From the NCBI RefSeq assembly GCF_000299395.1, contig NC_018656.1, positions 1,488,001 through 1,552,000 of the forward strand: a stretch of 64,000 nucleotides of DNA. The letters run 5' to 3'. The notes under the pieces were generated by a model. It did no database searches and had not been told where the DNA came from. It worked only from the letters and a program-made list of their open reading frames with translations. Shown piece after piece: positions 11,274 through 48,080 of this stretch. This stretch comes from Candidatus Nitrosopumilus sediminis. GTDB lineage: Archaea; Thermoproteota; Nitrososphaeria; Nitrososphaerales; Nitrosopumilaceae. Position 1 is the stretch's first letter. Every line of letters starts with the position of its first letter. The position numbers were made by a program, and so were the translations under genes.

Positions 11274-11335
11274 AGCAAAATAGATGGTGTGAGGTAAACG
11301 GTCTGGGAATAGCCTCCATCCTATCTATTTGAAAA
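11274..11335 (+). ncRNA. candidate structured small RNA
   Basis: AAATAGAT (11278-11285) pairs with ATCTATTT (11323-11330), and inside it GAGG (11291-11294) pairs with CCTC (11313-11316), with GG/CC pairs between. The enclosed loop is GC-richer than its surroundings (ACGGTCTGGG). TATAAT at 11244-11249 lies about 26 bases before the predicted 5' end. I do not recognise a known RNA family. The strand is chosen from the promoter position and is an inference. Confidence 0.4.
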
Positions 11336-11398
11336 TAATTATTGATATTTGAATAAAAGAGACACGTAGAAATCATTCATACAAATCATTAGTGTTTC

Positions 11399-11412
11399 CT
11401 AAATACTATTTT
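11399..11412 (+). promoter_or_regulatory. promoter box of small-RNA element copy A
   Basis: CTAAATACTATTTT is identical, base for base, to the box at 35876-35889 on the minus strand. In both cases its first base lies 27 bases before the first base of CAATTGGAA. This is the spacing expected between an archaeal TATA box and its transcription start. Confidence 0.55.
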
Positions 11413-11425
11413 AGAAAATACAATA

Positions 11426-11487
11426 CAATTGGAATTGTCACCAAACAACTAACCATTGATGGTCTTAAATTCCAATTTTATTAATTT
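11426..11487 (+). ncRNA. small-RNA element copy A (three-copy family)
   Basis: The outer helix is AATTGGAATT (11427-11436) with AATTCCAATT (11468-11477). Then comes an asymmetric internal loop, GTC against CTTA. The inner helix is ACCA with TGGT plus CAA with TTG, closed by a seven-base loop. A T-rich tail follows. The motifs GTCACC and TGGTCTTAA are shared with the copies at 35.8 kb and 47.9 kb. The nearest plus-strand coding sequence is far downstream, so it appears to be an independent RNA gene. Function unknown. Confidence 0.6.
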
Positions 11488-11545: not shown

Positions 11546-13147
11546 TCAAACACGAATAATTCCTTGTTTTATTAAAAACTCTAGCCCTTGAACAAAAGTT
11601 TCATCATCTATTTGTCCTGCTGCCCACCATTCTGCATTGTTTCTAATCCACGAGGGAATCTGTTGAGTTTCAGTTATTTCTTGTTGTGTTTGAGGAATTA
11701 CAATAATATCATTTTTTATCAAATATTCTATTCCCTGAATGAATGTATTATCATCAATTTGTTCTTCAGACCACCACAATGCATTGTTTCTAATCCAATC
11801 AGGTATTGAAATTTCATTTTGGTTTGCAACTCGATTAATTACAATGGGAATCGAAGTCTTTGCCAGATTATTGTTATCTAAGTTATAGAAATTCAGATTA
11901 GCAATTCCCGATACATCTTCAGGGACCATAAATTCTGCAATGTTGTGTTGATCTTTAGAATCAGTACTAGTGCCACTCTGCTCATAAATTATTTTTTCAT
12001 TTTGGGTAACTGAAAAATCATAATTTGTAGAAACAGGTCTGTTCTTTAAGAAAATATCAGTTACATCAAAAATTATCTTTGCATTAGAATTAGATGTTAA
12101 ATTTTCAGGTTCCATAGATGCTAAAATTCTAAACTGCCCATTTTCTGTGACTGAACTCAAATGAACATAATCACGATCTGGTTTGATCACAAAATTCATT
12201 TCATTTTGATTAGATCCATTTTCAAATACATTTAGCAATTCTTTTTGATAAATAATAAAATGAACAACACGTCCATCGGAGAAAAAATCATCAATGGTTG
12301 TAATATCATCAGAGAGTTTGACTCCGTTTACATACATTGAAAATCCAGATACTAGTAAATCACCAAATGTTTTTGGAATTACAAGTTCTTCATGAACAAC
12401 AGAAGTTTGGTTGATATTAGATTTACTCCACTCAAAAGGCATAGAATAACTGATTTCTTTTAAATTTGAATCATATTGAAAATCTGAAATTTCGTCATAG
12501 TATGTAACTACATCAATGGTTTGCTCTCCAAAGTTTGGATCAACAAAACTGTGTTTTGTGGTTTGAGCAATAGATATTCCAGCATTGAAGACAAGTGGTA
12601 CTTCCAATTTTTGTGAATAGTCATCAGCTGTAAGTATGCTAATATCAAATTTGTATAATCCTCCTTCGCTGAGTTTCGGTCCCTTTACATGAACCATTCT
12701 GCTTTCAAAGCCTAGCAAAGAGCCAAGAAGTCCATTATCAGTCTCTTCTTCAATTACAACAGCATCTACATCTTCTGATACAAAATTAAAAACTATGAAT
12801 CCGTTATCTGCCTTGAATTCTTGCTCAAATAGAAAAGTCTCACCACGATAAGATTTTATCAAAAATGTAACATCTCGTAAAGTTATTTTAGAATCAAAAT
12901 CAATCATCGAGATAGAAATTTGTTGATCATCACTTGCTTCAGAATCACTTTTAGACGATGAAATTTCTAGTGTTACTTGTTTTCCATTTAGATCAACAGG
13001 TGGAAAAGTTTCACTGCCTACACCATGACCAAAAACACTATCAAATCCAAAAATAAATACAGTTGAAAATATCAAAAGGGCAAATAATGCTAGATGATTC
13101 AATCTAAGTCCACTTGTTTGGATCTTTTTTTCTAATTTCTTTTCCAT
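11546..13147 (-). CDS. secreted protein with two C-terminal WIRNNAxWW repeats
   Basis: 533 residues from the ATG at 13147; an in-frame ATG at 13195 is also possible. I prefer 13147 because it puts the signal sequence (basic KKLEKK, then a hydrophobic stretch ending near FGHG) at the N-terminus and reduces overlap with the upstream 68-aa gene. The body is beta-rich and related to the 568-aa and 452-aa secreted proteins of this window, sharing an early GHGxG and DLNGKQV-like segment. Two copies of W-I-R-N-N-A-x-W-W...Q-I-D-D-x-T-F end the protein. It is probably a cell-surface protein. Confidence 0.75.
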   Translation of the reverse strand: MEKKLEKKIQTSGLRLNHLALFALLIFSTVFIFGFDSVFGHGVGSETFPPVDLNGKQVTLEISSSKSDSEASDDQQISISMIDFDSKITLRDVTFLIKSYRGETFLFEQEFKADNGFIVFNFVSEDVDAVVIEEETDNGLLGSLLGFESRMVHVKGPKLSEGGLYKFDISILTADDYSQKLEVPLVFNAGISIAQTTKHSFVDPNFGEQTIDVVTYYDEISDFQYDSNLKEISYSMPFEWSKSNINQTSVVHEELVIPKTFGDLLVSGFSMYVNGVKLSDDITTIDDFFSDGRVVHFIIYQKELLNVFENGSNQNEMNFVIKPDRDYVHLSSVTENGQFRILASMEPENLTSNSNAKIIFDVTDIFLKNRPVSTNYDFSVTQNEKIIYEQSGTSTDSKDQHNIAEFMVPEDVSGIANLNFYNLDNNNLAKTSIPIVINRVANQNEISIPDWIRNNALWWSEEQIDDNTFIQGIEYLIKNDIIVIPQTQQEITETQQIPSWIRNNAEWWAAGQIDDETFVQGLEFLIKQGIIRV

Positions 13148-13310
13148 CAATGGTAATTTGATCTTGTTCTTCAAATACAGTATGCCACTTTCCATTGTCT
13201 GGAAAAATTTTGTTCATCTCTTTTACTTTATCACTAGTTGGTGCTTTGTTCATTAAAGCTCCCCATCTCATGTTTGGAACCTTTGGCATGATATCATTGA
13301 TGTCTTTCAT
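13104..13310 (-). CDS. 68-aa hypothetical protein overlapping the next gene
   Basis: A hydrophilic 68-residue protein (MKDINDIMPKVPNMRWGALM at the start, KKDPNKWT at the end) with no recognisable domain. It is supported by a TATA-like TTTAAATAAA on the minus strand at 13331-13340, 21-30 bases before the ATG, which is the leaderless spacing seen throughout. Its 3' end overlaps the start of the 533-aa secreted protein by 44 bases in another frame. That would couple their translation. Confidence 0.5.
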   Translation of the reverse strand: MKDINDIMPKVPNMRWGALMNKAPTSDKVKEMNKIFPDNGKWHTVFEEQDQITIDGKEIRKKDPNKWT

Positions 13311-35804: not shown

Positions 35805-35862
35805 AATAAAAAATGGATCTTAAGACCAACAACGATTAATTGTTTGGTGACAGTTCCAATTG
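35805..35862 (-). ncRNA. small-RNA element copy B (three-copy family)
   Basis: On the minus strand CAATTGGAA begins at 35862. GTCACC follows, then an inner helix of eight pairs with one bulged A (ACCAA-CAA against TTGTTGGT), then TGGTCTTAA, a weaker outer helix (TGGA/TCCA core), and a run of six T. The box CTAAATACTATTTT at 35876-35889 is identical to that of copy A and at the same 27-base distance. The stress-protein gene downstream has its own promoter, so this is likely an independent RNA. Confidence 0.6.
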
Positions 35863-35875
35863 AATTTAGTTTGAA

Positions 35876-35889
35876 AAAATAGTATTTAG
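35876..35889 (-). promoter_or_regulatory. promoter box of small-RNA copy B
   Basis: CTAAATACTATTTT on the minus strand, identical to 11399-11412 (+), 27 bases before CAATTGGAA. Confidence 0.55.
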
Positions 35890-47464: not shown

Positions 47465-47848
47465 TTACTCCAAATAATTTTTAATTTTTTTAGTAGCTAA
47501 GTATCCAACATATCCAGAAATTATTGATGAGAATAAACCAGAAGTAACAGTTGATTTTTTTGAATTTTTATTCATCATTTTTTTTGCAATTTCTGAACCT
47601 CCAAAAATTGCACATGCCAATCCAATCAAAACCTCAGGCGCATCATAAACCAAATGTCCTATTGGATCTTTTCTGGGATCTATTTTGTCATTATGAACCA
47701 AAAATTTGTCATCATATTCTCTAATGTGCAAATTACCATAACGATATTGTTTTTCTGCTCCATTTTTTTGTCCAAGGAATGTTTCTTCAGCTTCTTCTAG
47801 CATGAATTCACGTAATTCCTTTGGGACTTCAATTTCATCCCTAGGCAT
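47465..47848 (-). CDS. 127-aa hypothetical protein
   Basis: An acidic N-terminal helix (VPKELREFMLEEAEETFLGQK) is followed by a soluble core and a weakly hydrophobic C-terminal part (GLACAIFGGSEIAKKM and LFSSIISGYVGYLATKK), perhaps membrane-associated. No family recognised. TTATAAT on the minus strand at 47871-47877 lies 23-29 bases from the ATG, so it has its own leaderless promoter downstream of small-RNA copy C. It is probably co-transcribed with the ABC1 kinase gene. Confidence 0.6.
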   Translation of the reverse strand: MPRDEIEVPKELREFMLEEAEETFLGQKNGAEKQYRYGNLHIREYDDKFLVHNDKIDPRKDPIGHLVYDAPEVLIGLACAIFGGSEIAKKMMNKNSKKSTVTSGLFSSIISGYVGYLATKKIKNYLE

Positions 47849-48080
47849 AATCGCATGATCAAGTAATTGCTTATAATCTTACTCTATACATTGTGAATAG
47901 CTTAAGACCAAAAACGAATTGTATTTTGATGACGGCTAGATGAAGATTTTAGAATATAATATTTAGATCTCACTGATAATTTCTACGAATTGATTTTAGA
48001 AAAATATAATTTTAAACTAAATAGTTAGGAAGAATGTTATTTTAAAAATTCTAATATTGTTTATGATGGTAAATTAGAAA
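47849..48080. other. 232-base intergenic region with small-RNA copy C
   Basis: The left end is the promoter of the 127-aa gene, then the RNA element (47897-47966 with its box). The right part is A/T-rich with no frame or structure I can support. Confidence 0.45.
47897..47942 (-). ncRNA. small-RNA element copy C (three-copy family)
   Basis: On the minus strand, GTCATC (47933-47928), a variable hairpin and TGGTCTTAA (47910-47902) occur at the same relative distance as in copies A and B. The inner helix has become ATCAAAA with TTTTGGT, so paired positions changed together. The outer helix is TAGC (47938-47935) with GCTA (47901-47898). The promoter-like CTAAATA begins at 47966 and sits five bases nearer the GTCA motif than in A and B. 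No run of T follows, so the 3' end is uncertain. Confidence 0.5.

Follow-up and report, generated by a model that had tools for sequence, protein, structure and literature searches.

The CsrB, RsmY and RsmZ RNAs are protein-titrating small RNAs, occurring as several paralogues in some hosts, and are free-standing RNAs that repeat one recognition hairpin. Tandem riboswitch aptamers, such as those of the glycine riboswitch, are also built from repeated compact modules with a conserved internal loop, combined with a stem and T-run. Archaeal C/D and H/ACA guide sRNAs are small, stable RNAs, and the H/ACA hairpin carries an internal loop. Finally, the non-autonomous hairpin-ended elements derived from IS200/IS605 are dispersed copies with a structured end and a sharp boundary. 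Ammonia-oxidising archaea are among the most abundant microbes of the sea and dominate marine nitrification, and regulatory RNA in these organisms is largely unexplored; in the open-access literature that we searched, neither a small-RNA family of ammonia-oxidising archaea nor an RNA of the kind reported here is described. The RNA analysed here represents a hitherto undescribed family of small RNAs with strong folds in Nitrosopumilaceae-type archaea, and this family resembles each of these systems in some respects and departs from each in others.

The unit of the family is a module of about 60 nt, in which a stem P1 leads through an internal loop, NUC/CUUA, to a stem P2, AYCAA/UUGGU with one bulged base, and an apical loop. 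As in the CsrB type, several recognition elements are found per RNA, in the form of a three-module cloverleaf alongside single-module paralogues, and the RNAs would likewise be free-standing if, as predicted, each is transcribed separately. In contrast with the CsrB type, the recognition element would be the internal loop, the host is archaeal, and the repeated modules form a cloverleaf instead of a string of hairpins; a GGA motif is present in the apical region of 4 of 134 modules, with no GGA-loop theme. With regard to guide RNAs, a search for the C/D boxes (RUGAUGA, CUGA) found box C in 1 of the 134 modules and box C followed by box D in 0 of 134, and an H/ACA box (ACA or ANANNA) lies 3' of P1 in 51 of 134 compared to 52.4 expected from shuffles. 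Moreover, the module internal loop is nearly invariant, unlike that of H/ACA RNAs, which varies with the target as a variable guide. A guide-RNA identity of either type was rejected, the boxes being absent and the internal loop constant.

The window is the whole stretch of DNA that was analysed, 64,000 nucleotides of Candidatus Nitrosopumilus sediminis (NC_018656.1, positions 1,488,001 to 1,552,000). A preliminary description had placed three copies of an intergenic small RNA, designated A, B and C, at 11399-11487 (+), 35805-35889 (-) and 47897-47966 (-), and all three are present at these places. The strict pattern GTCAYC-N(10,35)-TGGTCTTAA occurs at exactly three places in the window (11437-11468 +, 35820-35851 - and 47902-47933 -), is confined to the window within the 1.69-Mb genome, and has 0 matches in 100 dinucleotide shuffles. 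The two motifs are shared as had been claimed, but the gap between them measures 17 nt, or 23 nt from one motif start to the next, and not about 22 bases; similarly, the count of three copies holds for the strict pattern but not for the genome, in which a covariance model gives six modules. Copies A and B have an identical promoter box, CTAAATACTATTTT, and a common 27-nt spacing from the start of this box to the start of CAATTGGAA. The pairings originally proposed for A, B and C coincide with their minimum-free-energy (MFE) folds. Copy A forms AATTGGAATT/AATTCCAATT together with ACCA/TGGT and CAA/TTG (z -2.5), copy B forms ACCAA..TTGGT with a bulge (z -2.1), and copy C forms TAGC/GCTA and ATCAAAA/TTTTGGT (z -2.4). 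The positions of the individual features are given in Table 1.

Table 1. Features of the module copies and of the upstream region of copy A, in window coordinates.
Feature	Position	Strand	Basis
Copy A TATA-like promoter box CTAAATACTATTTT	11399..11412	+	Read directly
Copy A P1 5' strand AATTGGAATT	11427..11436	+	MFE fold, covariation
Copy A internal loop, 5' side GTC (family consensus NUC)	11437..11439	+	Alignment, base counts
Copy A P2 hairpin ACCA-AA-CAA..TTG-A-TGGT and apical loop	11440..11463	+	MFE fold
Copy A internal loop, 3' side CTTA	11464..11467	+	Alignment
Copy A P1 3' strand AATTCCAATT, right boundary of dispersing unit	11468..11477	+	MFE fold, similarity ends
Copy A T-rich tract after P1, possible transcription end	11476..11486	+	Sequence
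Copy B TATA-like box CTAAATACTATTTT	35876..35889	-	Sequence
Copy B module GGAACT GTC ..CTTA AGATCC	35815..35857	-	Covariance-model score 72.9 bits
Copy C TATA-like box CTAAATATTATATT	47953..47966	-	Sequence
Copy C module TAGC C GTC ..CTTA A GCTA	47898..47938	-	Covariance-model score 51.7 bits, MFE fold
Dispersing 200-nt unit of copy A (alpha, promoter and RNA)	11276..11476	+	G096 comparison
Partner element alpha, hairpin AAAATAGATGGTGTGAGG..CCTCCATCCTATCTATTTG	11277..11331	.	Near-fixed distance upstream of copy A module

We built a covariance model, R1, with 41 copies; it detects six modules at five places in the organism's own genome, namely A, B, C, 1060628-1060686 (-) of G000:C1, and a pair of modules within an array of three. 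A seventh module was recognised by eye. A pattern search matched 137 of 250 genomes of the family, a figure that includes chance hits, as the reversed control matches too. R1 matched 119 of the 167 family genomes that are at least 85% complete, with 1-19 matches each and with E-values that are approximate, owing to a shortened model calibration. In a class-wide search the matching genomes all belonged to the same family except G341, a fragmented assembly. Across a collection of 84,980 species, the contigs with a match carried titles that were mostly Nitrosopumilus, Nitrosarchaeum, Nitrosotenuis, Nitrosotalea or unnamed Thaumarchaeota; the few bacterial bins that matched may reflect chance or contamination, and the viral contigs searched contained no match. 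No Rfam 15 family matched the window at gathering score, and no tRNA or tmRNA was found in it. Searched at permissive thresholds, the 401 nt surrounding copy A and eight module loci returned chance-level eukaryotic snoRNA hits far below gathering, and a scan of six loci with upstream elements returned nothing relevant. The initial statement that the RNA has no described archaeal counterpart is thus borne out by Rfam 15, even at permissive thresholds.

In the consensus, P1 comprises 6-10 bp and is free in sequence, and P2 begins with an A-U or G-C pair followed by Y-R, C-G, A-U and A-U pairs, a bulged base on the 5' side, and further P2 pairing; the first pair changes from A-U to G-C in relatives. 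Several invariant bases of the module, including the U and C of the internal loop, are imposed by the search pattern itself. Because an alignment made with the model leans towards the model's own structure, the key tests employed pattern-selected copies and hand-trimmed arrays. Pair counting in the 41-copy alignment gave 95 doubly changed cells compared to 41.2 in shuffles, and 85% of cells were paired, against at most 44% when the helix was slid. Among 114 pattern hits, which are unselected at P1 positions 3-12, pairing exceeded independence at every one of these positions, and, when 100 column pairs were ranked, the top four all proved to be true P1 partners. Under a tree-aware null the P1 helix gave z 4.9 (0 of 500 simulations) and no single P1 column pair was significant alone, the covariation signal lying in the helix as a whole. 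G.U clearly exceeded A.C on the read strand (49:15, 46:9 and 61:17), indicating that the read strand is the RNA. These results imply that the modules almost certainly constitute a structured RNA family. Selection on RNA structure with fixed internal-loop motifs, as put forward in the preliminary description, is supported by covariation above background, and the proposal withstood the two of its checks that were applied, since conservation in other genomes proved wide and the covariation signal exceeded background.

Outside the window, one place in the same genome, G000:C1:301255-301399 (+), which an array model (R2) matches, is a cloverleaf, in which an outer stem surrounds three arms that each contain the same internal loop; R1 had detected a tandem pair here (301297-301396, +), and the third module, just upstream, was found by eye. 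Eighteen three-module arrays share this outer stem, P0, which occurs in variants such as GAAAAGGUGA/UUGCCUUUUC, GAAAAGACAA/UUGUCUUUUC, AGAAAGGU/ACCUUUCU and ACAAGGCU/AGCCUUGU. Folding of three divergent arrays produced as the MFE structure an exact four-way junction of P0 and three arms, each with a 3x4 internal loop (z -4.5 to -5.0; 0 of 200 shuffles as stable). Double changes numbered 89 compared to 32 in shuffles, and covariation reached z 7.3 and 10.6 under the tree-aware null. High-scoring R2 matches (E 1e-18 to 1e-40) occur in about 65 genomes, usually one in each, and a two-module version is present in G052 (1.2 Mb, one contig). G088 carries an array at 324577-324723 (+) as well as single modules at 520097-520155 (-) and 1004141-1004199 (-). 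Chance similarity among AT-rich intergenic hairpins, which the AT-rich window and the finding of three copies by the strict pattern only could suggest, has a negligible probability in view of the absence of this pattern from shuffles, the number of genomes with a cloverleaf match, and the covariation of both module and cloverleaf; conservation and covariation refute it.

The array is usually flanked on one side by a divergent FAD-dependent (geranylgeranyl-reductase-like) gene and on the other, downstream, by a gene for a nitroreductase. At L297, L303 and L319 it is found beside the same divergent gene, with a next downstream gene other than nitroreductase, and at L322 the downstream gene is convergent. 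A TATA-like box is located about 27 nt upstream of P0, and the nitroreductase gene apparently has its own box about 27 nt before the ATG. Because the array persists beside other neighbours, we abandoned an interpretation of it as a nitroreductase leader; as array and nitroreductase also each appear to have a box, we take the array to be an RNA gene in its own right.

Similar signals accompany the single modules. A CTAAATAC box with at most one mismatch lies in the -60..-18 region of 80 of 131 copies (5% expected from shuffles), the modal start of such a box being -38 from the internal loop, and a TATA-like box is typically found about 24 nt before P1. The box at -38 would place the transcript start at the P1 5' strand; in copy A, TATA spacing predicts an RNA 5' end at or just before 11427. 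The standard TATA box is absent from about 39% of copies, among which one recurrent group has a different box, TTCTTTTATGATT. The promoter pattern was not enriched genome-wide in the organism's own genome (44 compared to 46 in the reversed control), and the box therefore seems particular to module loci. T-runs of at least 5 follow P1 in 31% of cases, compared to 10% of control windows, and at L218, L223 and L222, all of one genus, T6-T7 directly follows P1. These sequence signals indicate that the module RNAs are probably transcribed as free-standing units. In the window region 11350-11412 and its equivalents, a second TATA-like box, TGAATAAAAG, was also noticed ahead of the main box, as was a direct repeat, AAATCAT, at 11370 and 11383 before the main box of copy A; some copies lack this 13-nt repeat and others have it, and it is perhaps an operator.

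Three classes of syntenic locus could be distinguished: class I, with a divergent cupredoxin gene on one side and a convergent 126-aa gene on the other; class II, the cloverleaf; and class III, represented by copy C, which precedes by about 45 nt a 127-aa gene (47465-47848, -) that has no Pfam match and its own TATA-like box, an arrangement kept in about nine other Nitrosopumilus genomes. Outside these classes contexts are mostly unique, and no common target gene or functional theme was found among the neighbours. The copy B module, for instance, is 90 nt upstream of a UspA-family gene (Pfam PF00582). Adjoining copy A is a gene for a 549-aa protein (11546-13195) without a Pfam match, whose C-terminal repeat, WIRNNAxWWAxGQIDDxTFxQGxxxLI, has related stretches at about G000:C1:1485575 and 1501357 and in other genomes.

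The arrangement of neighbouring genes bears on whether the module is a cis-acting, riboswitch-like leader or attenuator, in which a ligand or protein bound at the internal loop would stabilise P1, and P1 with the T-run would end transcription. P1 followed by a T-run does resemble a terminator, 31 of the 114 distinct single copies have a same-strand gene no more than 150 nt away, and syntenic copies are kept before the 127-aa gene (copy C) and the nitroreductase gene. However, the orientation of the next gene is near random (same strand 65, opposite 49), convergent genes end within 60 nt of 23 of the 114 single copies, the nitroreductase gene and the copy C gene each have their own TATA-like box some 25-27 nt upstream of the ATG, and the downstream genes have no theme; these neighbour counts are approximate, as genes were called by a simple ORF rule. 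We therefore consider a cis-acting leader unlikely as a general account of the family, although some of the single copies with a close same-strand gene may act in cis. The same data separate the family from tandem riboswitches, since a consistent 5'-leader position before related genes was not found. It differs from them further in having three arms inside one junction, many module copies with convergent neighbours, no consistent regulated gene, and no Rfam match.

As the internal loop and the adjacent pairs are constant, P1 and the apical loop variable, and the neighbours different, docking in trans is the reading that we find most likely, and we propose it tentatively, as a plausible interpretation of these sequence patterns. 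The transcript would start at the P1 5' strand and end in the T-run just after the P1 3' strand, leaving an RNA of about 55-75 nt that would be little more than one sealed hairpin, with NUC/CUUA displayed beside a constrained P2. The module would then serve in trans as a docking site for one protein (or ligand), built three times into the 145-nt cloverleaf RNA as a three-site version, and the regulatory output would be the occupancy or titration of the docked factor. Such a docking RNA would explain the constant loop and variable stems, the occurrence of one or three modules, the possession of separate signals, and the lack of a common target. Promoter-like boxes on dispersed copies, as seen here, could also recall base-pairing sRNAs, of which dispersed trans-encoded copies with promoters of their own are typical; the apical loop or P1 strands would then pair with mRNAs. 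However, these would-be pairing regions are the variable ones, whereas the internal loop and P2 bases are conserved, and we regard an mRNA-pairing role as very doubtful. That most sampled genomes of one ammonia-oxidising archaeal family carry the module RNA points to a regulator or binding partner. As a covariation-supported family with 1-19 copies per genome, known sequence and predicted ends, it provides a testable entry to the subject, and the compact repeated module is suited to a partner search by pulldown.

In addition to its one-module and three-module design, the family is unusual in its 3'-anchored dispersal. We compared 62 pairs of copies from non-orthologous places, each pair at least 82% identical over at least 90 nt. 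In nearly all of them similarity ceases no more than about 15 nt from the 3' end of P1, while on the 5' side it reaches one of several limits, which cluster near -40 to -56, near -160 to -205, and farther out. A pair within G117 is identical over 97-99 nt and abruptly different outside. The copy A unit is 91.5% identical over 201 nt to G096:C12:78789-78989, with abrupt ends; the similarity stops at the P1 3' strand, and neither of the copy A flanking genes is present at the G096 place. In G133, the rhomboid upstream region directly abuts a neighbouring gene, without the copy A unit. Taken together, the G117 pair, the G096 counterpart and the G133 locus indicate that copies come and go as a cassette.

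This raises the question of whether a non-autonomous mobile cassette has the module as its hairpin end, in the form of either single-stranded DNA or RNA, and whether the structure is kept mainly for mobility. The discrete lengths of upstream similarity, the stop at the end of P1 that puts the module exactly at the cassette end, the abruptly bounded G117 pair, the recurrence of the copy A unit at a non-orthologous place, and the presence of up to 19 copies per genome would all agree with this account. We nevertheless judge it to be as unlikely as the cis leader, these two being the main rivals of docking in trans: the cloverleaf, class I and class III loci are syntenic across genomes and genera, implying that many copies are maintained in place, the promoter-like box is at a fixed spacing, the three-arm cloverleaf has its own outer stem, and no terminal repeats or target duplications were noticed by eye at the copy A and G096 ends. 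The syntenic loci, the promoter-like box and the covarying helices likewise set the family apart from IS200/IS605-derived elements, as do its boundaries, the right being constant and the left falling into several size classes. More speculatively, and with a still lower probability, an archaeal noncoding RNA cassette could have this RNA as its product and as its mobility signal at once. The 3' end of the spreading copies would then be fixed at the terminal stem of the RNA, and the upstream stretch, which contains the promoter and a partner hairpin, would vary in length. If true, this would represent a SINE-like or single-strand-mediated mobile regulatory RNA gene, of which the three-arm cloverleaf would be the maintained, oligomerised form.

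The partner hairpin upstream of copy A, alpha, is also found upstream of modules at L238, L263, L275, L306, L211 and L225. The upstream element occurs in three sequence types at a near-constant distance, with beta (GATTGGGC..GCCCAATC) and gamma (TGCAATGGTGC..GCACCATTGCA), which have GGTAAAC-like motifs in common, taking the place of alpha in other copies. When positions in 20 genomes were compared with those of the covariance-model module matches, 15 of 17 well-formed alpha elements proved to precede a module by 120-190 nt and to have its orientation, and perfect beta elements adjoin a module of like orientation in 4 of 4 cases. A promoter-like box on the opposite strand suggests that the partner element may be a divergently transcribed RNA, possibly a second RNA family. 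At L391 and L393 (G120 and G158), the copy A place beside the rhomboid gene is occupied by another hairpin, GAGAAACYGGTACTAT..GACTCCTCYGTTTCTC, with no module, perhaps a further type of upstream element. At L077, gamma lies about 96 nt upstream of the module with its interior inverted between slightly different terminal repeats, as if it had been flipped or inserted the other way round.
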